A stretch of 60,332 nucleotides of DNA, from positions 1-60,332 of the forward strand of contig JADGPL010000018.1 in NCBI GenBank assembly GCA_017882455.1. The letters are read 5' to 3'. Below are positions 36,754-51,682 of this stretch, in pieces. The stretch's first letter is position 1, and each line of letters begins with the position of its first letter. The position numbers were made by a program, and so were the translations under genes. The stretch is from Solirubrobacteraceae bacterium (GTDB lineage: Bacteria; Actinomycetota; Thermoleophilia; Solirubrobacterales; Solirubrobacteraceae). Under the pieces are notes generated by a model, which saw only the letters and a list, made by a program, of their open reading frames with translations, ran no database searches and had not been told where the DNA came from.

Positions 36754-38703
36754 ATGCGCACTGACGCCGCTCGACCGATGATGTCCAGTTCCGAGCTCGA
36801 CGCTTCGTCGTCCCGGGCGCGTCGCGGCGAGTCCGGCCAGCCGACGGACACGGATCGCCCGTTCCCCTCGGCTCAACCCCTCTACATCGCCAGCCACGAC
36901 GAAGCGGTCTTTGCGATGCTCCACCCGGCGCGGGGGCCCGCGCGCGACGCCGCCGTGGTCATGTGCCCTCCGTTCGGCTGGGAGGACATGTGCTCCTACC
37001 GCAGCCGCCGGGAGTGGGCATCGCTGCTCGCCGCCGCGGGCTTCGCGGTTCTCCGCATCGACCTTCCCGGTAGCGGAGACAGCAGCGGAGGACCGCGCGA
37101 TCCAGAACGACTCCGTGCCTGGACCGACGCCGTGACTTCCTCGGCGCAGTGGCTGTCGAGCGCCTCCGGCGCTTCGCGCATCGTCGCAATCGGGATCGGC
37201 CTGGGCGGAGCGGTGGCCTACCGCGCCGCCGCACTCGGAGCCCCCATCGACGACCTCGTGCTGTGGGGAGTCTCCTCGCGCGGACGCAGGCACGTGCGTG
37301 AGCTGCGCGCGTTCTCACAGATGGAGAGCGCGTCCGACGTGGGCGACACGGCGGCGCCATCCGCCACAGCCGGCCCCGGCGACGGCTCGTTGACCGTGGC
37401 CGGCTACTTCCTCAGCGAGGGCACCCAGCGAGAGCTGGACGCCCTCGATCTGGCCGAGCTCGACTGTGGCCGGCTGGGCTCGGCTCGCGTGCTGATGCTC
37501 GGACGCGACGGGCGCGCCGTCGACTCCAGGCTCCAGGAGGCGCTGGAGGGCTGCGGCGCAGAGGTGACCGTGGGCGCGGGAGACGGCTACGCGGAGATGA
37601 TGATGGCCGAGCTACCCCACGCGGTCAGCGCCCACTCGGTCTTCGAGGCCGTCACAGCGTGGCTGGTCGATCGGAGTCACAGCGCCCCCGCAAAGCAGGC
37701 CGCGATATCGCCAGCGGCGCAGGCGTCCACCGAGATCTCGATGCCAGACGGCACGCGCGTGCGCGAGACACCGATCACGATCCCGCACCCGTTGGGCGAC
37801 CCGATCGGGATCCTGACCGAGCCGGTTGGGCCGGCCGTGGCGGTGTGCGCGGTCTGGCTGAACGCCGGTCCCCAGCGACGAACCGGCCCCAATCGCATGT
37901 GGGTGGAGACAGCCCGTCGCTGGGCGGCGCTCGGGGTGCCGAGCTTCCGCGTCGACCTCGCCGCCATCGGCGACGCCGACGGCGACTCTCGCTCGCTGCT
38001 GGACGTCCGCTCCTACTACACCGGCGATCACCTGGAGCAGGTGCGCGTCGTGCTCGACGCGCTACAGGCCCGCGGCCTGCCTGACCGCTTCATCCTGGGG
38101 GGGCTGTGCGCGGGCGCACACTGGGCGCTTCGCATCGCCCAGGAGGACACTCGCGTGTCCGCTGTGGCAGTGCTCAACCCCGGATACCTCGTCTATGACG
38201 GAGGCCTGTCGAACGCCATCGGCCAGAGCCGCTCGCTGGCCGCGATGCTGCTCAAGCCCTCGACGTGGAGCCGCGTGGTGCGCGGCCAGGTCACGCCCTC
38301 GGCGCATCTGGCCTCCTTGCGCACGCTGCTCGCAGCGTTCGGCCGCAAGCTGCTGAGGCTCCCCTCACGCATTCTGAGGCGAGGGAATGCGCAGCGTGGA
38401 GGGAACGAGCTCACGGAGGTCTTCGACCGGCTCCGCGAACAGGACCAGCGCGCGCTCATCATGTTCGCCGGGGAGGAGCGGCTGTACGCGCAACTGCTCG
38501 CCGCGGGTCGGCTGAGCGGCCTCGAGCGCTGGCCCAACATCTCGCTCGAGCACGTGGCCTTCCCGGGCGAGATGCACACGCTGCGCCCGCTGGTGCTGCA
38601 GCGAGAGGCGCATCGGCTGGTCGATGAGCTGCTGCAGCGGGAGCTCGAGCGGATCGGCGCCCAGGCCGATGCGGCTCCTGTCGAGCCCAGGCCGACCGGG
38701 TAG
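36754..38703 (+). CDS. Tandem alpha/beta hydrolase with atypical nucleophiles
   Basis: A 649-aa protein made of two consecutive alpha/beta-hydrolase domains (~40-305 and ~330-640). In domain 1 the nucleophile elbow reads G147-I-G149-L-G151, where Gly replaces the catalytic residue, so that half is probably inactive. In domain 2 the elbow is G450-L-C452-A-G454, with cysteine in place of serine, as in dienelactone-hydrolase-like enzymes. A late His in GEMHTL may complete the triad. Similar hydrolases accompany carrier-protein pathways in exosortase loci. It converges on the aminoacyl-carrier ligase operon (7 bp between stops). I infer off-loading or proof-reading of carrier-bound products. Confidence 0.75.
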   Translation: MRTDAARPMMSSSELDASSSRARRGESGQPTDTDRPFPSAQPLYIASHDEAVFAMLHPARGPARDAAVVMCPPFGWEDMCSYRSRREWASLLAAAGFAVLRIDLPGSGDSSGGPRDPERLRAWTDAVTSSAQWLSSASGASRIVAIGIGLGGAVAYRAAALGAPIDDLVLWGVSSRGRRHVRELRAFSQMESASDVGDTAAPSATAGPGDGSLTVAGYFLSEGTQRELDALDLAELDCGRLGSARVLMLGRDGRAVDSRLQEALEGCGAEVTVGAGDGYAEMMMAELPHAVSAHSVFEAVTAWLVDRSHSAPAKQAAISPAAQASTEISMPDGTRVRETPITIPHPLGDPIGILTEPVGPAVAVCAVWLNAGPQRRTGPNRMWVETARRWAALGVPSFRVDLAAIGDADGDSRSLLDVRSYYTGDHLEQVRVVLDALQARGLPDRFILGGLCAGAHWALRIAQEDTRVSAVAVLNPGYLVYDGGLSNAIGQSRSLAAMLLKPSTWSRVVRGQVTPSAHLASLRTLLAAFGRKLLRLPSRILRRGNAQRGGNELTEVFDRLREQDQRALIMFAGEERLYAQLLAAGRLSGLERWPNISLEHVAFPGEMHTLRPLVLQREAHRLVDELLQRELERIGAQADAAPVEPRPTG

Positions 38704-38709
38704 CCGCGC

Positions 38710-39645
38710 TCACACTCGCCACAGCTGGCCGCGGACCTCCTGCGGCCACGCCTCGATCTCGAGTCCGTGCGCTCGGAACAGGGCGAGCGCGATGCGCTCC
38801 ACCCCGAAGCCCAGGCACGCCGTGTGCGCCTCCGCGCCGCCCGCGAGCTCGATGCCATAGACCGAGGCGAAGTGATCCTGGTGGTAGTTGAAGGAAGCCA
38901 CGGCGGTCGGCTCGGGGCCGGCGATCTGAACGACCACCTCGAACTTGAGCTCCTGCTCGCGCTGGCTGGCCGCGAGCATGCGTCCGGCGCGCCCGAAGAA
39001 CGGGTCCGTCGCGACCGCGAGCTCGGCGTCCAGCCCGACCTCGCGCAGGAGCGAGGTGGTGCGGTCGCGCCACACGTCGCGCCAGGCAACGACCGCGTCG
39101 GGCTCGCCGATGCGCACGATCTCGCGCTGGTGGAACATCTGCATCCGCGCGGGGTCGCCCGAGGGCTCGTGGCGAAACACGTAGGCACTGCCCGCATCCA
39201 CGGTCACACCGCCCGCAGGGAGCTCGCCACGGGCGGCGATCGCGGGGTACACGGGGTAGCAGGCGGCTGGCGTGAGCACGAGCTCGGTCATCGATTGGAA
39301 CTCGCTCCAGTCCTCGTGCCTGCAGGCGCGGTCGAACTGCTCGGCGGCCTGGCCTTCGCTGCCCTCGAACGCAAAGATGCTGCCGGCGAGATGCGGAAAG
39401 GTCTTCAGGTAGCCGACCGACTCGAGGTCCCGCCGAGGGAGCAGCGGCGGAAAGCGCAGCTGCTCGGGCTGCTCGGGGGCGCCGGCCCGTGTGACCATGT
39501 CGCCGACGCGCCCGCATACCTCCTCGAAGTCCGCGCCGCGTCCATACAGGCCGGCCACGCTCGTCTGGATCAGAAGGCGTCGATCGAGCAGCTCGGCGAG
39601 GAAGGCCGCCTGGTCGGGCGTGCCCGGGCGATAGTCGGCCATCAC
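38710..39645 (-). CDS. Amino acid:[carrier protein] ligase, SerRS-like
   Basis: A 311-aa class II aminoacyl-tRNA-synthetase catalytic core without the tRNA-binding arm. This is the known family that activates an amino acid with ATP and transfers it to the phosphopantetheine of a dedicated carrier protein. Motif 2 is FRHEPSGDPARMQMFHQREI and motif 3 is CLGFGVERIALALF. C129, E175 and C277 lie where this family and methanogen-type SerRS bind the zinc that holds the substrate amino group. The start overlaps the carrier-protein stop by 4 bp. The amino acid (Gly or Ala in characterised relatives) cannot be read. Confidence 0.88.
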   Translation of the reverse strand: MMADYRPGTPDQAAFLAELLDRRLLIQTSVAGLYGRGADFEEVCGRVGDMVTRAGAPEQPEQLRFPPLLPRRDLESVGYLKTFPHLAGSIFAFEGSEGQAAEQFDRACRHEDWSEFQSMTELVLTPAACYPVYPAIAARGELPAGGVTVDAGSAYVFRHEPSGDPARMQMFHQREIVRIGEPDAVVAWRDVWRDRTTSLLREVGLDAELAVATDPFFGRAGRMLAASQREQELKFEVVVQIAGPEPTAVASFNYHQDHFASVYGIELAGGAEAHTACLGFGVERIALALFRAHGLEIEAWPQEVRGQLWRV

Positions 39646-39884
39646 ACCTGCGGCTGCAGCTCGGCCAACGCCGCCGTGATCGTGGTGACGCTTTCGAACA
39701 CGCTGCGCTTGAGCATGCTGTCGGGGAACTCGACGTCGAAGCCCGCCTCCAGCGCGAGCATCAGGTTGACGGTCGCGTGCGAGGTCATGCCGGCCTCGTA
39801 GAGGCTGGCGTCGTCAGCGAGGGTGCCGACGTCCACGGCGAGGCGCGCGTGTTCGGCGATGAGCTTTCTGATCTCCGGGTTCAT
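39642..39884 (-). CDS. Acyl carrier protein for aminoacyl loading
   Basis: An 80-aa acidic carrier protein beginning MNPEIRKLIAEHARL. The phosphopantetheine site is Ser35 in AGMTSHATVNLMLALE, the variant (T-S-H/F rather than D-S-L) typical of carriers served by aminoacyl:CP ligases. Helix II-III and the EFPDSMLKRSVFESV region are conserved. It is translationally coupled to the ligase gene. An 88-bp gap separates it from the esterase gene upstream; an internal promoter is possible. Confidence 0.88.
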   Translation of the reverse strand: MNPEIRKLIAEHARLAVDVGTLADDASLYEAGMTSHATVNLMLALEAGFDVEFPDSMLKRSVFESVTTITAALAELQPQV

Positions 39885-39972
39885 GGATGCAGTATCGACG
39901 AATCGGGCGCTTCCTAAACTGCCCGCGAGCGGCCATGCATCCTGAGGACGGGAACCGAGATCGAGCCCGGCG

Positions 39973-40893
39973 CTAGGTTGCGGGAGCACCTGGATGCTGC
40001 TGAAGGAAGCCGGCGACGAGCTCACCCACGTTCGACGGCCAGCCGTGTCCGGCGCCCTGCAGCGAGCGCAGCTGTACGACCGCATGAGCGCGACAGGCCG
40101 AGTAGGTCGTCACGATCGTCGCCTGAGCCCTGTCCGCCGTCTGGCCATGGCGCGTGCAGCGATCCAGCGAGGCCCATCGAGCGGCGGTTGCCGGTGCCGA
40201 GAGGACCGTCGTTCCGCCGCCGACCCCCGGGAAGGGACCGCCCCCGTAGGGGATCGACTGGTCGGCCGTGCCGTGCATCTCGAGCACCGATATCGGGCGT
40301 GCCGGCTGGCAGCTCGGCGACACGGAAACGGGGAGCGGTCCGGCGACGGGCGCCACGAGGGTCAGGCGCTTGGCCAGGCGACAGCCGAGCAGCTCGGTCA
40401 GGAGCGCGCCGTTGGAGAAGCCCGTCGCGGCGATGCGGGTGCGATCGATCGAGGAGCGAGCCTCGATCTGGCTGAGCACCGCGGAGGTGAACGCCACGTC
40501 GTCGACGTGGGCGACCTCGGCGGGGGTATGCCCGGCCCCCTCGTTCCAGGTGTCTTCGTATCCCTGCAGGAAGGCGACGACCGATCCACTCTGCGCGGCC
40601 ACCTGCACGAAGTCCGTTTCCTGGGTGGTCTGTTCGGCCGTTCCCTCCGCGCCGTGGAACACGAGCACCAACGGTTTCCGCCTCGGGCCGCCGGTGGGCA
40701 CGTAGAGGACGTAGGAGCGTTCGCGGCCTTCGGGGGTCATCACCGTGACGTGGGTCGCGCTGACGCCGAGAGCCGCCTTGGCACGAGCTCTCGGGAGCTG
40801 GGCGGCAGAGCCGCAGCCGGCGAACAGAAGGCTGGCGAGCACGCCGACGAGCACGAGCACCGACCGCGTGTATCGAGGAGGCCCGTCAGTCAC
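39973..40893 (-). CDS. Secreted lipoprotein esterase, PHB-depolymerase/LpqC-like
   Basis: A 306-aa alpha/beta hydrolase with a lipoprotein signal (lipobox LLFAGC, Cys27) that anchors it outside the cell membrane. The catalytic set is Ser in ATGFSNGALL, Asp in EMHGTADQSIPY and His in GAGHGWPS. The family includes feruloyl esterases and polyhydroxybutyrate depolymerases. Its start overlaps the ATP-grasp stop by 8 bp, so an extracellular step is apparently part of the carrier-protein operon, perhaps acting on an exported product (inference). Confidence 0.85.
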   Translation of the reverse strand: MTDGPPRYTRSVLVLVGVLASLLFAGCGSAAQLPRARAKAALGVSATHVTVMTPEGRERSYVLYVPTGGPRRKPLVLVFHGAEGTAEQTTQETDFVQVAAQSGSVVAFLQGYEDTWNEGAGHTPAEVAHVDDVAFTSAVLSQIEARSSIDRTRIAATGFSNGALLTELLGCRLAKRLTLVAPVAGPLPVSVSPSCQPARPISVLEMHGTADQSIPYGGGPFPGVGGGTTVLSAPATAARWASLDRCTRHGQTADRAQATIVTTYSACRAHAVVQLRSLQGAGHGWPSNVGELVAGFLQQHPGAPAT

Positions 40894-42163
40894 CGCTGAT
40901 CCGAACCTCGGTGTTGGCGTATCGCTCGATCGTCCTCAGCATCTCGTAGGTCGCAACCGATCCGCGCACGGAGAATACGTGGCCGTGGTTGCCCGCGCGC
41001 CAGTCGACCGAGGAGCCGGGGCCCCGGTTGAGCGTGACTTCCTGCACCCCGGTGAGCGCGCGCAGTCCGTCGAGCCCGTCCACCGCGCGGATCGTCCTCA
41101 TGGCCAAGGGTGCCTGGATGTAGAGCAGGTAGCCGATGTGGGCGCACCGCGGCATCGTGTCGAACACGATCGACTCGCCGAGCGCCACCCGCAACGCGAT
41201 CTCCAGCAGCTCCACCCCGGTGGCGTCAGCGAGCATCTCGGGCACGCCCCCTCCGATGCGCCCGTTGAGCTCGATCACCCGCGGCCCGTCCGGTGTGAGC
41301 TTGACCTCGGTGTGCAACAGGCCGACGTCCACCCCGACTCCCCGCACGGCGGCGGTTGCCACCTCGGCGATCGCCGCGCACTGATCCTCCTCCAGCGCAC
41401 AGGGAATGAAGAACCCGGTCTCCCGGAAGGGCTCGGCGGGCGGAAAGCGTCCGGTGATCGCAAGATGGCTGATCTGTCCGTCGCTGACCACGCTCTCGAC
41501 CGATACGTAGTCCGCGAAGTGATGGTCGGCGGCCTCGGGCCGATCCCGCAGGTACTCCTCGAGCACCAGCTGAGGACGGCGCGATCCCGCCGCGTCGGGG
41601 GTCGCGGCGACCATCGAACGCAGCTCCTCGAGAGACTCCACCCGCACCGTGTCCCTGCTGGCTTCGCCGCTGCGCGGCTTGAGCACCGCGGGGAACCTCG
41701 CCGCCTGCGCCAACGCCGTCCACGCACTTTCGTCATCGGCGTCGGGGATCTGCCAGAACCCGGGCACCGGAAGCCCGGCGTGCTGCAATGCGAGCCGCTG
41801 CAGGTGCTTGTCGGTGAGCGCTTCGGCGACCTCCGGGGCAAGGAAACGGAGGTCCAGCAGCTCGGCGAGTCGCGCCGTCCACACGAGCAGGCTGTCGGCC
41901 AGCGCGAGGATGCCGTCGGGCCGCGCAGCCGCGATCGAGGACGCGGCCTGCTCGAGCGAGGAGCCGGCGACGTCCACCACGTCGCCGAGTCGGCGCAACA
42001 GCCGCGACATCGAGCTGATCTCGGGATCGCTCGTATCGAGGATCCAGATCAACTCACAGATCCCCTCTGCGGCCTCCGCTATGGCCATCGTGCCGAAGGA
42101 GCGCGGGTGGTAGGCGAAGGCCAGGCGCGGGCGCTCGCCGGCGCTGGAGCTGCTCTCGGGCAT
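40886..42163 (-). CDS. ATP-grasp ligase
   Basis: A 425-aa ATP-grasp protein (carboxylate-amine/thiol ligase type). It has an N-terminal pre-ATP-grasp domain (~1-115). The ATP-binding lysine is in FPAVLKPRSG (K162), LVLEEYL supplies the hinge acidic residues, and the Mg site follows in HTEVK (284-288) and VIELNGRIGGG (E298, N300). A ~100-aa C-terminal domain follows. Such enzymes make peptide or amide bonds via an acyl-phosphate. In this operon it could join a carrier-bound or free amino acid to another amine. It lies 10 bp after the dehydrogenase gene. Confidence 0.87.
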   Translation of the reverse strand: MPESSSSAGERPRLAFAYHPRSFGTMAIAEAAEGICELIWILDTSDPEISSMSRLLRRLGDVVDVAGSSLEQAASSIAAARPDGILALADSLLVWTARLAELLDLRFLAPEVAEALTDKHLQRLALQHAGLPVPGFWQIPDADDESAWTALAQAARFPAVLKPRSGEASRDTVRVESLEELRSMVAATPDAAGSRRPQLVLEEYLRDRPEAADHHFADYVSVESVVSDGQISHLAITGRFPPAEPFRETGFFIPCALEEDQCAAIAEVATAAVRGVGVDVGLLHTEVKLTPDGPRVIELNGRIGGGVPEMLADATGVELLEIALRVALGESIVFDTMPRCAHIGYLLYIQAPLAMRTIRAVDGLDGLRALTGVQEVTLNRGPGSSVDWRAGNHGHVFSVRGSVATYEMLRTIERYANTEVRISGD

Positions 42164-42173
42164 CCTCAGATCG

Positions 42174-43355
42174 TCACAGATGCTTGCGTGCCAGCAGCAT
42201 CTCGGCGTTGGCGCGCAGATAGCGCTCGTTGCTCACCATCACCACCGAGCCGTGTGCATCGCGGATCTGGCGATCGAGGGTGAACGGCGTGCCACGCTTG
42301 AATCCGGCGATCCCACAGATCGAGAGCGCCCCGGTCGTTATCCGCACGGCCAGCTCTGAGGTCGAGACCTTGACGTTGCGCACGGAGGCGAGGAAGCCCG
42401 GGCTTTCCATCTCCGGCGATGCTTCGAAGGCGGTGAACGCGTTCGCGGCCGTCGCGAGCAGGCCGCGTGACTGCTGCAGTTCGGTGGCGAGCACCGCGAG
42501 GTGCCCGGCGGCAGGAGGGATCGTGCCGATGCTGCGCCGGGCGGCCGCACGGACATACTCGTGCGCCTTGGCGGCAGCAGCCTCGGACAAGCCGACCCAG
42601 GCAGAGCTGAGCAGGATGGTCGATGCCTGAATGCCGCCGTTGCTCGCGATCGTGGCGAAGGGCACCGGATAGATCATCCCCGCATCGACCTTCGCCACCA
42701 GGCGGAAGCCGTTGCTGCACGTGCCGCGCAGGCCGAGCGCGTCCCAATCCGAGGTTTGCTCGAGCGTGAGGTCCGGCCGGCGGCAGATGACCTGCACCTG
42801 GTCGGTCTGCTCGCTGTCGGGCGCTCGCCGAGCGGTCGCGACGACGGCGTCGGCGTGCTCGCCGTAGGAGATCGCCAGGCACTGCTTCTCCAGCGTCATG
42901 CCCCCGTCCGTGGGCTCGACGGCGCAGATGCTGCGACCGACATCGCCACCGATGCCGACCTCGCTGTTGGCATTCGCGATCAGCAGCTGCTTGGAGGCGA
43001 TCTCGGCCTGCAGCTCCTGCAGGGGCTTCGAGGTCCCATGACGAACGAGGTTGGAGACCTCGATGCTGTGCATCGCGAGCACGAGAGCGCTCGCGGTGCA
43101 ATGAGATGCGAGCGCACGCACGGCGCCGGCGACTTCCGCCAGCGTTGCCCCACCCCCGCCGAGCTGCTCGGGAATCAGAGCCGACAGAAGCCCGGCTCGC
43201 TTCAGCTCCTCGACGGCCTCGCGCGGAAAGCGTGACTCACGGTCGACCTCGTCGGCCACCGGCCCGGCCACATCGACACCGATCTTCCAGGCAACGCTCT
43301 CCAAGGGTCCAGTCGACTCGGCAGGGCCCGTCAGGCCGCTCAGAAGCTCACTCAT
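42174..43355 (-). CDS. Acyl-CoA dehydrogenase-like flavoprotein
   Basis: A 393-aa protein of the acyl-CoA dehydrogenase fold: N-terminal helical domain (SRFPREAVEELKRAGLLSALIPEQLGG), middle beta domain, and C-terminal helical domain (SICGIAGFKRGTPFTLDRQIRDAHGSVVM). ATG 43353-43355 is preceded by AAGGAGG with 7-nt spacing, so the upstream in-frame start is rejected. I cannot place the catalytic Glu of acyl-CoA dehydrogenases with confidence. Next to an aminoacyl carrier system it may oxidise the carrier-bound amino acid, as prolyl-carrier dehydrogenases do (inference). Confidence 0.82.
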   Translation of the reverse strand: MSELLSGLTGPAESTGPLESVAWKIGVDVAGPVADEVDRESRFPREAVEELKRAGLLSALIPEQLGGGGATLAEVAGAVRALASHCTASALVLAMHSIEVSNLVRHGTSKPLQELQAEIASKQLLIANANSEVGIGGDVGRSICAVEPTDGGMTLEKQCLAISYGEHADAVVATARRAPDSEQTDQVQVICRRPDLTLEQTSDWDALGLRGTCSNGFRLVAKVDAGMIYPVPFATIASNGGIQASTILLSSAWVGLSEAAAAKAHEYVRAAARRSIGTIPPAAGHLAVLATELQQSRGLLATAANAFTAFEASPEMESPGFLASVRNVKVSTSELAVRITTGALSICGIAGFKRGTPFTLDRQIRDAHGSVVMVSNERYLRANAEMLLARKHL

Positions 43356-43474
43356 CACGCCACCTCCTTGATATGCCAGCACGCTCGCGGTCGCCGCGCA
43401 TGAGCACTGTGGTCGGGAAACTGCAGGTCAAGAGGCCGCCCTCGTCATCAAGCGCTCGGGGCGACACAGAACCC

Positions 43475-43870
43475 CTATCGGCAGCCATCGCGCAATTCTG
43501 CAATCACGACGGCGCACGCCTGCGTTCCCTCGTGCGTGATGCTCAGCTGGAGCTCCTCGATGCCGGCCTGCTCGGCCAGCTCGGCGGCGGCACCTCCCAG
43601 CTCCAGCGAGACCCAGCCGCCGGCTGCGCTCAGCACCTCGATCGAAGGCCAGGGAATCGCATCCTGCGAGCTCGGCCGCAGCACCTTCATGGCGGCCTCC
43701 TTGGCGGCGAAGCGAGCCGCCAGGCGCTCGACCGCGATGCCGGTGGCGCTGCGACAGGCGTCGAGCTCGCGGTCGGTGTACACGCGGGCGAGGTACTGCT
43801 CGCCGTGGGTGTCGAGGGACTCGCTCACCGCATCCACGTCGACCAGGTCGATTCCAACGCGCAGCGGCAT
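43475..43870 (-). CDS. Holo-ACP synthase-type phosphopantetheinyl transferase
   Basis: A 131-aa AcpS-type transferase that puts phosphopantetheine from CoA on the carrier protein. The Mg-binding residues are D8 in GIDLVDVDAV and E58 in RFAAKEAAMKVL; LSITHEGTQACAVVIAE is the C-terminal motif. GGGAGG lies 9 nt before the ATG at 43868-43870; an ATG at 43879 directly abuts it and is less likely. It is the first gene of the operon and probably a dedicated enzyme for the nearby ACP, though it could also serve fatty acid synthesis. Confidence 0.88.
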   Translation of the reverse strand: MPLRVGIDLVDVDAVSESLDTHGEQYLARVYTDRELDACRSATGIAVERLAARFAAKEAAMKVLRPSSQDAIPWPSIEVLSAAGGWVSLELGGAAAELAEQAGIEELQLSITHEGTQACAVVIAELRDGCR

Positions 43871-43924: not shown

Positions 43925-44475
43925 ATGACACGCGTCGCTGCCGCGGCGGGCCTGATCTCGCTCCTCGGCTGTAGCGCGTCCCTCGCGTCTGTCCCGGCAA
44001 CCGTGCCGACCGGGCCGGCGCCGCACCCAGCTCGCCAGCTCCTGGTGGTGAGCGCTCACGCGTACGGCGACACGCACGCGACGCTCACCGCTTATGAGAC
44101 GAGCGGTGGACGTCGTCGCATCGCCTTCGGGCCGTGGGCAGCGCGGATCGGTTACAACGGCTTCGCGCCGCCGGGGCGCAAGCGCGAGGGCGATGGCCGA
44201 ACACCGAGCGGCACCTACGCCTTCCACTTCATCTTCGGGATCGCGGGCAACCCCGGTGTGCGCTATCCGTACCGCAGGGTGCACGCCTACGACGTGTGGG
44301 ACGACGATCCGTCGAGCCCGCTGTACAACAGATGGGTCGACGAGCGCACCCGCGATCCTGGCTGCTCGAGGTGTTGCGGTGGCTGGACCCGGCTCGCTCG
44401 CCGCGGATCGAGATGGGGGTCGGCGCGGGCGCGCCCAGACCCAAGGCAAATGCAGGAGATCTTATAAGTTTGTAA
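43925..44475 (+). pseudogene. L,D-transpeptidase remnant with internal deletion
   Basis: The frame from 43925 has a signal peptide (MTRVAAAAGLISLLGCS...) and the N-terminal part of an exported L,D-transpeptidase (YkuD fold): RIGYNGFAPPGRKREGDGRTPSGTY and HAYDVWDDDPSSPLYNRWVD. It should continue to the catalytic HGx-TxGC motif but instead shifts to nonsense. A different frame then gives a proper C-terminal tail (WLLEVLRWLDPARSPRIEMGVG) ending at 44475. The catalytic core is thus absent, best explained by an internal deletion near 44345-44360 that also changed frame. An inactive gene is likely. Confidence 0.75.
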
Positions 44476-44857: not shown

Positions 44858-46816
44858 GTGGGCACGCTCGATGCCGTTGCGCTCGCTGGAGCCGCGACGG
44901 TCGCTCTCGGAGGACTGCTCGCAGCGATCGGTGGCGGTTTGCGCGCCGGCCTCGCGGTGCAGGCGGCGGGCATGGCGCTGCTCGGCGCTGGCGGCCTGGC
45001 GGTTCTGACAGGCGGCGATGCTCTCGGGGCAGCCTTCAGGAGCACGATCGGGCCGGCCCTCGGCCTCGATCCGCTCAGCGGCTTCTTCCTCGCGGTGCTC
45101 GCTCTGACGGCTGTGCCGACGCTGGTGTTCGCGCGGGACTACCTGCCCACGAGCCCGGGTGCGCGGGCCGTCGGCGCGTTGACGGCCGCATTCCTCCTGG
45201 CGCTGGTCGGCGTCCTGGCCGCCCGCGACGTGACCAGCTTTCTCGCCTTCTGGGAGCTGATGACGCTCCTGCCGGCAGCAGCGATCCTCGTCGCCAGGCG
45301 CGACCAGGCCGTTCGCTCGGCGGTCTACGCGTATCTGGCGATCACGCATCTCGGTGGCGCGGGAGTGTGGATCGCGTTGCTAGCGCTCGCGCATCATGGC
45401 GCGCTCGGCGACCCGTCCGCGCTCGCGGCAGCCGGGACCGGCGCCCAGACAGTGGTGGCACTGGCAGCGCTGATCGGCTTTGGCACCAAGGCGGGGTTCA
45501 TCCCACTGCACGCCTGGTTGCCACGCGCACACCCGGTCGCACCGGCCCATCTATCGGCGCTGATGTCGGGAATGATGATCAAGGTCGCCCTGTACGGACT
45601 GATCCGGGTCGAGTTTCAGTGGATCGGCGCGACACCGCGATGGCTGGGGCTCGCGCTGCTCGCGATCGGTCTGCTGTCCTCGCTGGGCGGCGTGCTGTGG
45701 GCGCTGGTGCAACACGAGCTCAAGCGTCTGCTCGCGTATCACTCGATCGAGAACGTCGGCATCATCGCGCTCGGGCTCGGCGCATCGTTGCTGTTCGCGG
45801 ATGCCGGACAGAGGACGTGGGCCGCGATCGCGTTTGCGGCCGCACTGCTGCACGTCGCCAACCACGCGATCTTCAAGGCGCTCCTGTTCCTCGGCGCCGG
45901 GACCCTGGAGCGAGCGGTTGGCGGCCTGGACCTGGACCACCTCGGCGGACTGTTGCGGCGGATGCCATGGGCGGGCGGTGCGTTTCTGGTCGGGTCGATG
46001 GCGATCGCAGGGCTGCCGCCACTGAACGGGTTCGCGTCGGAGTGGCTGGTGCTGCAGTCGCTTCTGCACGTCGCCCTCCACCGTCCCCTGGGTGTAGCGC
46101 TCGCGGGCGCGGTGGCACTTGCCGGCCTCGCGATGACCGCGGCCCTCGCGCTGCTGTGCTTTGCGAAGGTCGTCGGCCTCGTTCTGCTCGGTCCGCCGCG
46201 GCGAGCCGAGTGCGCGCAGGCGGTCGACCCGCCCATGGGCATGCGAGCCGGAATGGTCGCGCTGGCGGCGATGTGCATCGCACTCGGCCTCGTGCCGGGC
46301 TTGGTGGTGCCGACGCTCACCGGCCTTGCGCCCGGCGTGCACGGCACTGTGTTGGCCAGACATGCAGGCCTCGTGCTGCCCGGGACGGGCTCGTTCCCGT
46401 CGCTCGCTCTCGGGCTGGCGCTGGCCGTCCTCACGACCGCCCTGATCGGCGTCCGTGGCAAGCGCCGCGCCGCGACGAGCCCAACCTGGGTTTGTGGGCA
46501 GCCGGTCGCGAGAGCCCTCGGCTGGACTTCGGCCGGGTTCACCAAGCCGCTGAGGCTCGTGCTCGAGGCGCTCCTGCGCCCGCACCGCGCGATCGAGGTC
46601 GAGCGGGACGGCGGGATGGTGCAGAGCATCACCTACACGGGCCATGTCCCCTCGCTGCTTGACGCGGCTCTCTACGAGCCCGCCGTCCGCGCCGGCCTGC
46701 GTGCGGCCGCCGTCGCGCGGCGCCTGCAGTCTGGAAACGTGCGCACGTACGCCGCGTACCTGCTCGGGCTGGTCATCGGGTTGCTCGTGCTTGCGCACAC
46801 GGGGGCACTCGGATGA
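44858..46816 (+). CDS. Group 4 hydrogenase membrane subunit, HyfB/HycC-like
   Basis: A 652-aa antiporter-like subunit related to NuoL/MrpA, with ~14-16 helices. It carries proton-pumping residues: the Glu in AFWELMTLLP, the Lys in GTKAGFIPLHAWLPRAHPVAP, SALMSGMMIKVALYGLIRV, and SIENVGIIALGLG (typical of HyfB/HycC). The start is GTG 44858, 2 bp after the ArsR stop. It is the first structural gene of the six-gene operon, each overlapping the next by 1-8 bp. Confidence 0.9.
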   Translation: MGTLDAVALAGAATVALGGLLAAIGGGLRAGLAVQAAGMALLGAGGLAVLTGGDALGAAFRSTIGPALGLDPLSGFFLAVLALTAVPTLVFARDYLPTSPGARAVGALTAAFLLALVGVLAARDVTSFLAFWELMTLLPAAAILVARRDQAVRSAVYAYLAITHLGGAGVWIALLALAHHGALGDPSALAAAGTGAQTVVALAALIGFGTKAGFIPLHAWLPRAHPVAPAHLSALMSGMMIKVALYGLIRVEFQWIGATPRWLGLALLAIGLLSSLGGVLWALVQHELKRLLAYHSIENVGIIALGLGASLLFADAGQRTWAAIAFAAALLHVANHAIFKALLFLGAGTLERAVGGLDLDHLGGLLRRMPWAGGAFLVGSMAIAGLPPLNGFASEWLVLQSLLHVALHRPLGVALAGAVALAGLAMTAALALLCFAKVVGLVLLGPPRRAECAQAVDPPMGMRAGMVALAAMCIALGLVPGLVVPTLTGLAPGVHGTVLARHAGLVLPGTGSFPSLALGLALAVLTTALIGVRGKRRAATSPTWVCGQPVARALGWTSAGFTKPLRLVLEALLRPHRAIEVERDGGMVQSITYTGHVPSLLDAALYEPAVRAGLRAAAVARRLQSGNVRTYAAYLLGLVIGLLVLAHTGALG

Positions 46817-47730
46817 ACACGCTCGCCGCGCTCGTGCAGATCGCCGGTGTCGCGCTCGCGCCGCTGCTGCCCGGCTCGATCCAGGCGCTCAAGGCACGGC
46901 TGCAGGGCCGCCGAGGCCCGTCGGCGGTGCAGCCCTACAGGACATTGCGACGTCTGTGGCACAAGAGCGCCGTTGACCCTGAGGGAACGAGTGTGATCTA
47001 TTGGATCGCGCCGCCGCTCGTCGCCGCCTGCATGCTCGCGACTCTGGCCATCGTTCCGGTGGGCGGGCACGCGGGTCCCTTCGGACTCGGCCACGACGCC
47101 CTCGTGCTCGTCGGCCTGCTCGCCCTCGCCCGGTTCGCGTTGGCCGCCGCGGCGTGGGACACGGGCAACGGCTTTTCGCTGATGGCGGCTGCGCGCGAGC
47201 TGATGATCTCGGTCTTCGGAGAGGCGCTGCTCGTGCTGGCGCTGCTCCTCGCCGCGCTCCCCGCCCACAGCACGGACCTGCGCGCGATGAGTGTGGCAGC
47301 GGCCAGCGGACACATCTGGAGCGCGCCCGCCCACTGGTGCGGCGCCCTGGCGTTCATGCTCGTGATCCTCCTCGAGACCGGCCGCCAGCCGATCGACAAC
47401 CCGGACACGCATCTCGAGCTGACCATGATCCACGAGGGGCCCCTGCTTGAGTACGGCGGCCGCGACCTCGCGTTTCTGCAGTGGGCGGCGGGCGCACGCC
47501 ACTGGGTCATGCTCATCCTGGGCGCCGAGCTGTTCCTGCCGCATTGGGGCGGATTCGCGGCGAGCCTGGGCCTGCTCCTCGCGGGCGTGACGTTCCTCTG
47601 CGGCTCGCTGGCGCTGATCGAGACGACGCAGGCGAAGCTGCGAATCCTGCGCGTCCCGGCGCTCCTGGGAGTCGGATGCGCGATCGCGCTCGCGGGCGCA
47701 GGCATGTGGGTCGGGGGGGTGGGCACGTGA
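46813..47730 (+). CDS. Group 4 hydrogenase membrane subunit, HyfC/HycD-like (NuoH homologue)
   Basis: A 305-aa subunit with about eight helices that links the hydrogenase module to the ion-pumping arm. The cytoplasmic loops are conserved: LKARLQGRRGPSAVQPYRTLRRL and ETGRQPIDNPDTHLELTMIHE followed by GPLLEYGGRDLAFLQW, both diagnostic of HyfC/HycD rather than NuoH of complex I. The ATG overlaps the HyfB-like stop by 4 bp. Confidence 0.92.
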   Translation: MNTLAALVQIAGVALAPLLPGSIQALKARLQGRRGPSAVQPYRTLRRLWHKSAVDPEGTSVIYWIAPPLVAACMLATLAIVPVGGHAGPFGLGHDALVLVGLLALARFALAAAAWDTGNGFSLMAAARELMISVFGEALLVLALLLAALPAHSTDLRAMSVAAASGHIWSAPAHWCGALAFMLVILLETGRQPIDNPDTHLELTMIHEGPLLEYGGRDLAFLQWAAGARHWVMLILGAELFLPHWGGFAASLGLLLAGVTFLCGSLALIETTQAKLRILRVPALLGVGCAIALAGAGMWVGGVGT

Positions 47731-48344
47731 ACGGCGCGCTCGTCGACGCGATGCTCGTGCTCGGGCTGGCCGTGATCGTCGTGCGCCGCCGATCTGTTGC
47801 GATCGGGCTGCTGGCCGCGCAGTCGCTAGCGCTCGGCGTCGGCGCGCTCAGCCTCACCGGCGGCCGCTCGAGCGACTCCCTCGTCGCGAGCTTCGTGCTC
47901 TTGAGCAAGGCGATCGTGCTCCCGCTGCTTCTATATGCGCTCATCCGCAGAACGCGCGAGCCGGGCCTGGTGGTGGCTGCCGCGAGCGGGCTCGTGCGTC
48001 TGGCATGCGCCGGCGCGGTGGTTCTGTGCGCCGTCGTCCTGGTGCCGTCAATCGGACTTGGCGATGCGCACACCGAACACGCCGCGGTCGCGCTCGTCCT
48101 GCTCGGCATCACGATCGTCGTCGCGCGACGTCCGATCCTGTTCCAGCTGCTCGGGCTGATCGTGGCCGAGAACGGCCTGTCGCTGCTTGCGGTCTCGGTG
48201 CCGGGAGGGCTGTCCTACGTGATCGAGCTCGGCGCGCTGTTCGACCTCGCGCTGATCGTGACCGTCGCTGCGGCGTTCGCACACCGGATCCACACCGAGC
48301 TGGGAACCGGAGACACCGAGCTGCTTCGAGGCCTGCGTGACTGA
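47727..48344 (+). CDS. Group 4 hydrogenase membrane subunit, HyfE-like
   Basis: A 205-aa protein with about six helices; its C-terminal half is NuoK-like, with a Glu in LGLIVAENGLSLLAVS. The GTG at 47727 overlaps the preceding stop (GTGA). HyfE-type subunits are found in Hyf/four-subunit ion-pumping group 4 hydrogenases but not in Hyc, so the operon is Hyf-like. Confidence 0.87.
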   Translation: MNGALVDAMLVLGLAVIVVRRRSVAIGLLAAQSLALGVGALSLTGGRSSDSLVASFVLLSKAIVLPLLLYALIRRTREPGLVVAAASGLVRLACAGAVVLCAVVLVPSIGLGDAHTEHAAVALVLLGITIVVARRPILFQLLGLIVAENGLSLLAVSVPGGLSYVIELGALFDLALIVTVAAAFAHRIHTELGTGDTELLRGLRD

Positions 48345-49827
48345 CCTCGTGCCGATCCTCGTCGTCGTCGTGCCGGCGCTGGCGCTCGTGGGGATGCTGC
48401 TCGCGCTACTGGCGCGCACTCCGCGCCAGGCCCACCTTCTCGCGCTCGCCACCGCGGTGCCGACCGCCGCCGGAGCGCTGGCCCTCGCCGCCACAGCGCT
48501 CGCGCGCGGTGGGCTGCCAGCCCTGCGCGGCCAGTGGTACTTCCTCGATGGCGCCAGCGGACTGATGCTCGCCGTGATCGCGATCGTGGGCATCTGCAGC
48601 ATCGCCGTCTCGCCCGCCTACCTGCGAACGAGTGGCCGCAGATGGTCGACTGCCGCACGATCGCAGAGCCTCTACTACGCCGCCCTGTTCCTCTTCTGGG
48701 CGGCCCTGCTCGCCGTGCCGATCGTCGGCAACCTCGCGGCGGCGTGGTTGATCATCGAGGCCACGACCGCCGCTTCTGCACTGCTCGTGGCCTTCAGCGG
48801 CCGGCGCGACGCGCTGGAGGCCGGCTGGAAGTACCTCGTGCTGACCACACTCGGGCTCTCGGTAGCGCTGCTCGGGATCATCGTCCTCGCCATCAGCCAG
48901 GCGAACCTCGGACACCACGGTCTCCACGCGCTCGACTGGCACTCGCTACGGGCGGCCGCCCACGGGCTACCCAGGGACTCGACGCTGATCGCGTTCGTGC
49001 TCCTGCTCGCCGGGCTGGCGACCAAGATCGGTTGGGCACCGGTTCACAACTGGCTGCCGGACGCACACAGTGAGGCGCCGGCTCCGATCAGCGCTCTGCT
49101 CTCCGCCGCGCTGCTGCCAAGCGTGCTCCTGGTGGCCTGGCGGGTGAAGTCGATCCTCGAGCCATCCGTGGGCAGCGCCACCACGCGTGGCGTGTTCATC
49201 GCGTTCGGCCTGACCTCGATCCTCGTCGCCGTGCCGTTCCTCTGGCGATCGCTGCCATGGAAGCGACTGCTCGCCTACTCGAGCCTCGAGCACATGGGCG
49301 TGATCGGCCTTGGAATCGGGTTCGGCACACCATTGGCGATCGCCGGCGTCGTGCTCCACGTCGCCGGCCATGCGCTCGCCAAGGCGCTCGGCTTCTACGC
49401 CGCCCTGCCGCTGCTGCGGATCGACCCCGACGCAGCCAAACGCGCACCTGAGGGCGTTGTCGGCGACAGTCCCTCCACGGCCGCCGCGATGGGCGTCAGC
49501 CTCCTGACGCTCTCCGGCCTGCCGCCCTCGCCCCTGTTCCTGTCCGAGCTGCTGATCCTGCTCGGCGGCATCGCCGCCGGCGACGCGCTCGTCAGCGCGA
49601 TCGCGCTCATCGCTCTGGCGCTCGGGTTCCTCGGGCTGCTCCACGCGCTGATCGAGGGCGTGGTCGGAGAACACGCTCGACACCACCGGCGGGCGCGGTC
49701 GCGCGCCGAGCGACCGATCATCGCGCTCACCGCGGTGCTCGGCAGCGGGCTGCTGGCTCTCACCGCGGCGGGCCTGCTGCTTCCCGGCTCGGGCTTCGTG
49801 GACACGCTCGCGAAGGGAGCGCTGTGA
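48337..49827 (+). CDS. Group 4 hydrogenase membrane subunit, HyfF-like (NuoN/M homologue)
   Basis: A 496-aa antiporter-like subunit with ~14 helices. Landmark stretches are LAAAWLIIEATTAASALLVAFSG, ATKIGWAPVHNWLPDAHSEAPAPISALLSAALL and AYSSLEHMGVIGLGIGFG, which carry the conserved Glu, Lys and Glu/His of the proton channel. The GTG start overlaps the HyfE stop by 8 bp. With the HyfB-like protein this gives two candidate pumping subunits. Confidence 0.9.
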   Translation: MTDLVPILVVVVPALALVGMLLALLARTPRQAHLLALATAVPTAAGALALAATALARGGLPALRGQWYFLDGASGLMLAVIAIVGICSIAVSPAYLRTSGRRWSTAARSQSLYYAALFLFWAALLAVPIVGNLAAAWLIIEATTAASALLVAFSGRRDALEAGWKYLVLTTLGLSVALLGIIVLAISQANLGHHGLHALDWHSLRAAAHGLPRDSTLIAFVLLLAGLATKIGWAPVHNWLPDAHSEAPAPISALLSAALLPSVLLVAWRVKSILEPSVGSATTRGVFIAFGLTSILVAVPFLWRSLPWKRLLAYSSLEHMGVIGLGIGFGTPLAIAGVVLHVAGHALAKALGFYAALPLLRIDPDAAKRAPEGVVGDSPSTAAAMGVSLLTLSGLPPSPLFLSELLILLGGIAAGDALVSAIALIALALGFLGLLHALIEGVVGEHARHHRRARSRAERPIIALTAVLGSGLLALTAAGLLLPGSGFVDTLAKGAL

Positions 49828-51236
49828 CAGCGATCGAGCACGTGGCGCCGCGCGCGTGGCGCGAGACGGTCGCGCAAGCCCTTCTCCGCGGGGAGCGCTT
49901 TGGGGGCGCCTGGGCGAGCGGACGCGAGGGGAGCCTGGCCTGGCGCGCGCTGCTCACATCCCCCCAAGGCGAGCGCGTGATCTCATGCCAGGCGAACGAA
50001 CGGCAGGTCGAGAGCATCGTCGATCTCGTCGAGGCCGCAGGATGGGATGAGCGCGAGGCCCATGACCTCTATGACATGGCGTTCCCCGGCCATTCACCGC
50101 TGCGCGCGCTGGCGGCGCATCCGGAGGATCCCGCGCAGTGGATGACGCCAGTGACAGGCGATGGAGTGCACCAGGTGGCCGTGGGTCCGATCCACGCCGG
50201 CGTGATCGAGTCCGGCCACTTCCGCTTTCACGTCGTGGGCGAGCGCATCCTCGCGGTGGACCCGCGGCTCTTCTACAAGCACCGGGGACTCGAGCGCGCC
50301 GCCGAGGGCAGCAACAGCGAACAGGCGCTCCAATACGCCCAGCGGGCGTGCGGAGCCTGCTCTGTCTCCAACACGCTCGCCTACGCGCACGCGGTCGAGG
50401 ACGCTCTGGCGCTGAGACCGGATCGCGAGCTGCGGGTCAACCGAACGGTGCTGCTGGAGCTCGAGCGCCTGTACAACCACCTGCACGACATCGGCGCCAT
50501 CTGCGCAGGCGTCGGCTTCGCGCCCGGGTCGATGGCGTTCGCCGCGCTGAAGGATCGCGCCCAGCAGGTCAACCAGCGCGCATTCGGACATCGCTTCCTG
50601 TTCGGGAGCGTTTGCGTCGGACGCGGAGGGTTCGAGCTCGACGCCTCGAGCACGGACTCCGCACGAGGGGCGATCCGCGAGCTGCACGCGGACGCAGCGG
50701 CCGCCTGGCGCGAGCTCGAGTTCGCCGGCTCGGTGCAGGCCCGGCTCGACGGTGTCGGTGTGCTCTCGCACTCGGACGCCCAACGGCTCGGAGCCGTCGG
50801 ACCGGCGGCACGAGCTGCCGGCATCCGCGAGGACGCCCGCGGCACGAGCCCGCGCCTCGCCTACGACGGCTTCACGCCCGCGTCCCCAACCGCGGCGGCC
50901 GGCGATGTTGCAGCACGTCTGAGGATGCGCGCGATCGAGCTCGAGAGCACCTGCGAGCTGCTCGAGGATCTGCTCAGACAGCCACTCGCTCCGGGCACCA
51001 CGACCGCCGGCGGCGCAGCCGCGACAACGCTCGGCGTCGGCACCGTCGAGAGCCCGCGCGGGGCCACGACGTGCGCCGTCGAGCTCGACGGCGCCCGGGT
51101 CGCCCGCCTGCACCTGCGCACCGGCTCCTACGCCAACTGGCCGGCGCTCGCCCATGCAGCCGCCGACAACCTGCTGCCCGACTTCCCGCTGATCAACAAG
51201 AGCTTCGAGCTCTGCTACGCCTGCGTGGACCGCTGA
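49824..51236 (+). CDS. Group 4 [NiFe]-hydrogenase large subunit, HyfG-like (NuoC-NuoD fusion)
   Basis: A 470-aa subunit: NuoC-like N-terminal domain (~1-105, with DEREAHDLYDMAFPGH) and NuoD/large-subunit domain. The Ni-Fe ligands are present as RAC176GAC179 and C464YAC467 at the extreme C terminus (CYACVDR-stop). This separates it from complex I NuoD, which lacks these cysteines. VAVGPIHAGVIESGHFRF is typical of the Hyf/Hyc family. The His three residues after the first motif (CGxCxxxH) is Asn183 here. No C-terminal extension follows Arg470, so no maturation peptidase would be needed. The GTG start overlaps hyfF by 4 bp. Confidence 0.92.
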   Translation: MTAIEHVAPRAWRETVAQALLRGERFGGAWASGREGSLAWRALLTSPQGERVISCQANERQVESIVDLVEAAGWDEREAHDLYDMAFPGHSPLRALAAHPEDPAQWMTPVTGDGVHQVAVGPIHAGVIESGHFRFHVVGERILAVDPRLFYKHRGLERAAEGSNSEQALQYAQRACGACSVSNTLAYAHAVEDALALRPDRELRVNRTVLLELERLYNHLHDIGAICAGVGFAPGSMAFAALKDRAQQVNQRAFGHRFLFGSVCVGRGGFELDASSTDSARGAIRELHADAAAAWRELEFAGSVQARLDGVGVLSHSDAQRLGAVGPAARAAGIREDARGTSPRLAYDGFTPASPTAAAGDVAARLRMRAIELESTCELLEDLLRQPLAPGTTTAGGAAATTLGVGTVESPRGATTCAVELDGARVARLHLRTGSYANWPALAHAAADNLLPDFPLINKSFELCYACVDR

Positions 51237-51682
51237 TGTACGTGCTGCTGCGCCAGCTCGCCACGATCCGCCGCGAGGCCCGCCTGACCCGCGGCCAGCC
51301 GCGCTCGCTCGCGATACGCCACGTCGACGCCGGCTCGTGCAACGGCTGCGAGCACGAGCTCGGCGCCGTAGCCAACCCCTTCCACGACCTTCAGCGCCAC
51401 GGGCTCGACATCGTCGCCTCCCCTCGACACGCCGACATCCTGCTCGTCACCGGACCCGTCACCACCCGGATGCTCGGGCCACTGCTCACGGCCTACCGGG
51501 CGATGCCCGAGCCCCGCCTCGTGGCCGCACTCGGCGACTGCGCGCTTGGCTGCAACGTCCTCGGCGACCCCGCCGAGATCGTGGGCGCCCTGGAGGACGT
51601 GCTCCCGGTCAACATCCGCATCCCTGGCTGTCCGCCGACACCGGACGCGATCGCCGAACACATACTCGCCGCGCTCGGATAA
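51236..51682 (+). CDS. Group 4 [NiFe]-hydrogenase small subunit, HyfI-like (NuoB homologue)
   Basis: A 148-aa subunit that binds the proximal [4Fe-4S] cluster next to the Ni-Fe site. Ligands are C35 and C38 (GSCNGCE), C102 (LGDCALG) and C132 (IPGCPPTP). The ATG overlaps the large-subunit stop by 1 bp. It is the last gene; the next gene is on the other strand. No HyfH/HycF-like 8Fe-ferredoxin subunit follows, which is the usual next step toward the electron donor. Confidence 0.92.
   Translation: MYVLLRQLATIRREARLTRGQPRSLAIRHVDAGSCNGCEHELGAVANPFHDLQRHGLDIVASPRHADILLVTGPVTTRMLGPLLTAYRAMPEPRLVAALGDCALGCNVLGDPAEIVGALEDVLPVNIRIPGCPPTPDAIAEHILAALG

Follow-up and report, generated by a model that had tools for sequence, protein, structure and literature searches.

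A putative ATP-grasp subtype of the amino acid:[carrier protein] ligase pathway in a Solirubrobacteraceae bacterium

What might a bacterium make with a free-standing carrier protein, a ligase of the type that loads such carriers with amino acids, and an ATP-grasp ligase placed between a flavoenzyme and a secreted esterase? This combination lies on a 60,332-nucleotide stretch from a soil bacterium of the Solirubrobacteraceae (contig JADGPL010000018.1 of assembly GCA_017882455.1; hereafter “the window”), which is contig 30 of an assembly of 3.3 Mb in 51 contigs. A preliminary description of the window had proposed that six adjacent minus-strand genes form one pathway. We found that the flavoenzyme, ATP-grasp, and esterase genes replace, as a unit, one half of a wider cluster built on nearly the same loading enzymes. 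The reading that we favor, with a probability of roughly 0.45, is that the locus belongs to an ATP-grasp-containing subtype of the pathway around amino acid:[carrier protein] ligases, assembled from two exchangeable modules and following a butirosin-like route.

The seven genes and their loading half

All six described genes were recovered with their coordinates and overlaps from open reading frames, Pfam, and NCBIfam (over curated cut-offs where these exist), but the inventory had overlooked a seventh, convergent gene. The cluster consists of the following features.

36778 to 38703, plus strand: double α/β-hydrolase, convergent with the ligase gene, with halves of the hydr2_PEP and hydr1_PEP type
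38710 to 39642, minus strand: amino acid:[carrier protein] ligase with a SerRS-like catalytic core lacking the tRNA-binding arm (NF005479)
39642 to 39884, minus strand: dedicated carrier protein, phosphopantetheine site at the serine of GMTSH (NF005480)
39973 to 40893, minus strand: secreted lipoprotein esterase, polyhydroxybutyrate-depolymerase-like, with lipobox LFAGC and motif G-F-S-N-G
40886 to 42163, minus strand: ATP-grasp ligase of the L-amino-acid ligase/BacD type (PF13535 and profile matches)
42174 to 43355, minus strand: flavoenzyme of the acyl-CoA-dehydrogenase (ACAD) fold, ATP-grasp-linked clade, without the canonical catalytic glutamate (PF02771/PF00441)
43475 to 43870, minus strand: AcpS-type phosphopantetheinyl transferase (PPTase; PF01648, TIGR00556)

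The proposed coupling of carrier to ligase and of esterase to ATP-grasp is borne out by the junctions. The carrier stop and the ligase start share 1 nucleotide (TGATG), and the GTG start of the esterase overlaps the end of the ATP-grasp gene by 8 nucleotides. The ATP-grasp gene starts 10 nucleotides past the end of the flavoenzyme gene (42174–43355), immediately upstream of which sits AAGGAGGTG. The description of most junctions as close or overlapping fits these pairs, whereas gaps of ∼119 nucleotides between PPTase and flavoenzyme and of 88 nucleotides between esterase and carrier are wider. The PPTase matches PF01648 with 49.9 bits and TIGR00556 with 70.2 bits (cut-off 45.35), and its gene repeatedly adjoins the carrier gene in related loci.

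The ligase scores 404.9 bits against NF005479 (“amino acid--[acyl-carrier-protein] ligase”; curated cut-off 357), and the adjoining carrier scores 104.9 bits against NF005480, the model for the dedicated carrier of this ligase (curated cut-off 72). The closest solved structure to the 310-residue ligase is Bll0957 (E 1.5e-77), which it matches over nearly the full length as a class II core without the tRNA-binding domain. The window ligase has the zinc ligands Cys/Glu/Cys, which 47 of 47 homologues share; the phosphopantetheine serine of the carrier is kept in 52 of 52. By score, catalytic core, zinc ligands, and adjoining carrier, the pair thus belongs to the amino acid:[carrier protein] ligase family, and this membership supports the loading function predicted earlier for a free-standing system. 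Bll0957 and Atu2573 were reportedly established as amino acid:[carrier protein] ligases by Mocibob et al. in 2010 and 2013. As late as 2022, a review (PMC9437257) described the biological role of such carrier-bound amino acids as unknown. A fragment of a nonribosomal peptide synthetase (NRPS) was rejected as a source of the genes: the cluster contains no adenylation (A) or condensation (C) domains, and the stand-alone carrier is the sole carrier-domain match in the whole window.

The overlooked hydrolase gene (36778–38703) ends 6 bp from the ligase gene. Its N- and C-terminal halves resemble exosortase-A-associated hydrolases 2 and 1, respectively, but are related to these families rather than members of them (82.7 bits against a cut-off of 202.75, and 75 against 168.45). 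The N-terminal domain lacks a serine nucleophile, whereas the C-terminal domain features a cysteine nucleophile (G-L-C-[AS]-G; G-L-C-A-G in the window) in 28 of 30 homologues, together with a conserved histidine. A fold search returned only generic α/β-hydrolases and the thioesterase DcsB. Because the hydrolase gene lies near the ligase in many relatives, is part of the operon in loci L083 and L087, and marks the end of the cluster in Azospirillum, Phyllobacterium, and Rhizobium, we count it as a member of the same system as the six genes. With its conserved cysteine, the hydrolase is the likelier candidate for off-loading.

Exchange of the partner genes

Within the order, 41 of 232 genomes contain the ligase, as do 10 of 396 genomes sampled across the phylum. 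In most relatives, the usual layout comprises PPTase, carrier, flavoenzyme, ligase, DUF1839, GH2, and hydrolase. DUF1839 is found in 32 of the 232 genomes and adjoins the ligase wherever both lie on the same stretch. The same annotated order, without the PPTase, is seen on alphaproteobacterial plasmids of Azospirillum, Phyllobacterium, and Rhizobium (L174–L176). These plasmid clusters share carrier, flavoenzyme, ligase, and α/β-hydrolase with the window, the hydrolase being convergent in Phyllobacterium and Rhizobium as well. Unlike the window, however, they carry DUF1839 and GH2 and neither ATP-grasp nor esterase. From the canonical cluster, the window retains the hydrolase and lacks DUF1839, GH2, and the DUF1839-linked clade of the flavoenzyme; indeed, DUF1839 (PF08893) is absent from the whole genome, and GH2 has no match in the window.

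The two partner sets exclude each other. Among 68 ligase loci, 14 have only ATP-grasp, 38 only DUF1839, none both, and 16 neither (p about 1e-6, a Fisher value that overstates significance given the shared ancestry of the loci, so that the trees weigh more). The esterase is present in 15 loci, all with ATP-grasp, and GH2 in 34, all with DUF1839; neither was found elsewhere.

The trees separate the two halves of the cluster. In the flavoenzyme tree, a single branch (support 100/99) parts all ATP-grasp-linked from all DUF1839-linked proteins, a split that persists (100/100) when alphaproteobacterial sequences are added, and the flavoenzymes of the window and of locus L054 are sisters (97/85). 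The ligase of the window is instead placed among four DUF1839-type ligases of the same genus (98/95), and a constraint uniting the window and L054 ligases was rejected (approximately unbiased test, p-AU 6e-6). Similarly, among the hydrolases the window is paired with a DUF1839-type cluster of the same genus (100/98) and L054 with the DUF1839-type L041 (98/91). Ligase and hydrolase are thus inherited with the genus, whereas the flavoenzyme follows the type of partner. Because the flavoenzyme tree conflicts with those of the ligase and the hydrolase, the flavoenzyme–ATP-grasp(–esterase) set has descended along a separate line; most simply, it was swapped more than once onto resident loading genes. 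The loading enzymes of both types are nearly alike, the ligases being 77% identical.

A second route to the same loci started from the ATP-grasp alone. Of the 232 genomes of the order, 9 have a strong ATP-grasp match, and the ligase is present in 8 of these 9, compared with 41 of 232 overall. A scan of ∼85,000 genomes with the ATP-grasp only, blind to the ligase, yielded 36 loci and recovered, next to the ATP-grasp, genes for carrier, ligase, hydrolase, flavoenzyme, and esterase. At identities of at least ∼50%, nearly all loci have the same flavoenzyme directly upstream, and most have the esterase alongside. The ligase set is located in the same locus or, for L078, L079, L082, and L094, elsewhere in the genome; the genomes of L080 and L103 yielded no ligase. 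A tight operon of all seven genes, with 4-nucleotide overlaps, is seen in L083 and L087. Hosts include Acidimicrobiia, Solirubrobacterales, Flexivirga caeni, other Actinomycetota, and one Acidobacteria bin. The preliminary description had named missing co-occurrence in relatives as the finding that would speak against a common pathway; the genes recur together across related loci.

Some loci differ in composition. L069 (3600–19900) contains two ligase–hydrolase–carrier sets and three ATP-grasps, two of them in tandem and one at the edge of the locus; next to its esterase gene lies a gene for a diaminobutyrate aminotransferase. The more distant ATP-grasps of L090, L092, L096, and L100 and the second copy in L103 were assigned to a different pathway and not counted as support. 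In this ATP-grasp group, which occurs in Acidimicrobiaceae, the ATP-grasp is accompanied, as judged by eye, by a MetA-like protein, a Cys/Met-type pyridoxal phosphate enzyme, and an FAD/NAD-binding protein, apparently a different, undescribed ligation pathway.

The flavoenzyme and the ATP-grasp ligase

PF02771, PF00441, and a Foldseek search with an AlphaFold2 model (confidence, pLDDT, 83; low in the C-terminal part) all assign the flavoenzyme to the ACAD fold. It had been described as acyl-CoA-dehydrogenase-like; in function it is a putative dehydrogenase at most. None of 48 homologues has the catalytic glutamate at either the MCAD-376 or the IVD-254 position. In a comparison set of 18 sequences (17 from the same genome, some of them from imperfect reading frames, and 1 from a relative), a glutamate occupies the first column in 5 and the second in 6. 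Because both canonical glutamates are missing, plain α,β-dehydrogenation by an ordinary acyl-CoA dehydrogenase appears doubtful. Oxidation of a carrier-bound amino acid would still be conceivable for this fold, since the ACAD-type enzyme of the zwittermicin aminomalonyl-ACP pathway (ZmaH, ZmaI, ZmaJ) works on an aminoacyl-ACP (PMC6395733). That pathway sets a precedent for the activity proposed here, although its loading is of the A-domain type and its context is that of a polyketide synthase and NRPS.

Alternatively, the flavoenzyme could be an ACAD member of the N-oxygenase type, akin to KijD3, DnmZ, and ORF36, that forms an N-hydroxy or oxime aminoacyl-carrier. The loss of both glutamates in 48 of 48 homologues would suit such an activity, and “monooxygenation” was predicted in 2010 for a related cluster (PMC2922099, note in proof). 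Profile and fold searches place the flavoenzyme equally near to dehydrogenases, DszC, and the N-oxygenases KijD3 and DnmZ, with the model close to TM 0.8 against dehydrogenases and oxygenases alike. The level scores of KijD3 and DnmZ speak for the N-oxygenase, but short-chain acyl-CoA dehydrogenases score just as well, and the cluster has no flavin reductase; we consider this assignment possible though not probable.

The closest solved relatives of the ATP-grasp ligase are the L-amino acid ligase BL00235 (3vot; E 3.7e-34) and BacD (E 7.3e-24). Its Mg/ATP-binding residues E, E, N, and R are conserved in 38 of 38 homologues. The protein is not equivalent to the named enzymes BacD (38.7 bits against a cut-off of 850) or DdaF (23.2 against 840). 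The substrates of BL00235 and BacD are free amino acids, and no carrier protein is known to take part in their reactions.

Proposed route and alternatives

Direct computation gave the family assignments, the integrity of the catalytic residues, the linkage across relatives, the mutual exclusion of the two partner sets, and the conflicting gene histories; from these we infer the chemistry and product of the pathway as follows. In module 1 (PPTase, carrier, ligase, and cysteine hydrolase), the carrier would be primed, an amino acid loaded onto its phosphopantetheine, and the product finally off-loaded. Module 2, which here consists of flavoenzyme, ATP-grasp, and secreted esterase in place of a flavoenzyme, the papain-like DUF1839, and GH2, would modify the loaded amino acid. 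The flavoenzyme may oxidize it without the usual glutamate, either at the C–N bond to an imine or by N-oxygenation. The ATP-grasp, acting like BtrJ, would form an amide on the carrier-bound amine or add a second amino acid. The hydrolase cysteine could then take the acyl group from the carrier and pass it to an acceptor with an amine or hydroxyl group, in most cases an intermediate of an envelope glycan, and the outer esterase may trim or mature the exported product.

The closest precedent in logic is the AHBA (4-amino-2-hydroxybutyrate) side chain of butirosin, which is built on the free-standing carrier BtrI by the ATP-grasp BtrJ acting on a carrier-bound amino acid and by the flavin enzyme BtrO. 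Carrier, ATP-grasp, flavin oxidation, and transfer to a sugar amine by BtrH all have counterparts in the proposal; however, butirosin uses an ATP-grasp for loading and the window a SerRS-like ligase, and the likeness is one of logic, without demonstrated orthology. Work from 2023 placed DUF1839 among the papain-like folds, described its C-(T/S)-H site, and noted that BtrH, an acyl-carrier:aminoglycoside acyltransferase, has a domain of the same superfamily (PMC10318531). Dlt D-alanylation (DltA, DltC) likewise uses a free-standing carrier to bring one amino acid to an envelope polymer (PMC9338922), but DltA is an A-domain-type enzyme, unlike the window ligase, and the window carrier scores 27.5 bits against the DltC model, below the cut-off of 68.

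Free-standing aminoacyl-carrier pathways as such are therefore already known (Dlt, butirosin), and part of the DUF1839-type ligase neighborhood was noted in 2010 by Iyer and Aravind, whose prediction for the Atu2574-like protein was amide formation with a sugar of the cell surface (PMC2922099, note in proof). The Bll0957/Atu2573 neighborhood resembles the window in its ligase and carrier families, in a redox enzyme alongside, and in the absence of an NRPS. It contains an Atu2574-like protein (the predicted amide former, DUF1839 in the clusters compared here) and a glycosidase, where the window has an ATP-grasp, a secreted esterase, and a flavoenzyme of another clade. The earlier statement that the combination is not described consequently stands for the ATP-grasp subtype, of which a search of openly licensed papers found no report, but not entirely for the wider cluster. 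What is new is the replacement of the DUF1839/GH2 half, as a unit, by ATP-grasp, secreted esterase, and a distinct flavoenzyme clade.

The 135 nearest non-core flanking genes of ∼50 related loci include 14 family 2 glycosyltransferases (GT2) and 15 methyltransferases, compared with 31 GT2 matches in the 3.3 Mb of the whole genome, which perhaps points to an envelope glycan. Several observations weigh against this acceptor or against the modular route as a whole. No glycan genes lie near the window cluster, so that a glycan acceptor is an extrapolation here, and the Phyllobacterium cluster adjoins plasmid replication genes. L054 has no esterase within its short contig. L070 and L075 contain only PPTase, carrier, ligase, and hydrolase, without a system flavoenzyme, DUF1839, or ATP-grasp; module 2 is therefore not obligatory, and these reduced clusters are perhaps the minimal form of the system. 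Finally, Flexivirga caeni possesses both types of module 2 at separate loci, and the shared ancestry of the loci limits what their counts can say.

A small diffusible natural product is another explanation, which we regard as possible though not probable. Here, the ATP-grasp would join a free and an oxidized amino acid, as the activity of its relatives BL00235 and BacD on free amino acids suggests, the hydrolase would be a plain thioesterase without any glycan acceptor, and the lipoprotein esterase, which is secreted and travels together with the ATP-grasp, would activate an exported pro-form. The lack of nearby glycan genes in the window and the diaminobutyrate aminotransferase beside the L069 cluster are consistent with this product. 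Nonetheless, related loci have glycosyltransferase-rich flanks, no exporter or regulator turned up repeatedly alongside the module, and a cysteine nucleophile in 28 of 30 hydrolases suits transfer as well as hydrolysis. That the genes are chance neighbors, as two gaps of ∼90–120 nucleotides and one convergent gene in the window might suggest, is very improbable and was rejected at the linkage level, because seven genes recur across classes, form a tight operon in L083 and L087, were found by the ATP-grasp-only scan, and show mutual exclusion and module swap.

Under the modular reading that we favor, we tentatively suggest that the ATP-grasp/flavoenzyme/esterase set is a plug-in that turns a widespread loading system into a route to new oxidized, amide-linked amino acid decorations or metabolites. 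DUF1839, as a papain-like transferase, and the ATP-grasp would then be two chemically different ways of forming an amide from one and the same aminoacyl-carrier. A second, exchangeable partner set narrows the possible chemistry of the parent system: whatever DUF1839 and GH2 achieve, an amide-forming ATP-grasp and a secreted esterase can stand in for them on nearly the same loading enzymes, which fits the 2010 prediction of the Atu2574/DUF1839-type protein as an amide former. Both routes can be compared side by side, for example in the isolate F. caeni BO-16, where the DUF1839-type cluster (L135) and the flavoenzyme–ATP-grasp–esterase set (L082) lie on different contigs, the latter adjoining rhamnose-type sugar genes.

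Beyond the cluster, a short secreted protein (43925–44467, plus strand) is encoded divergently from the PPTase; it has no Pfam or NCBIfam match, its codon signal is weak, and its 3′ part is possibly frameshifted. Further along, a run of proton-pumping NADH dehydrogenase/hydrogenase-4-like membrane subunits (44858–51682, plus strand), assigned by eye, lies directly downstream of an ArsR-type regulator, likewise assigned by eye.

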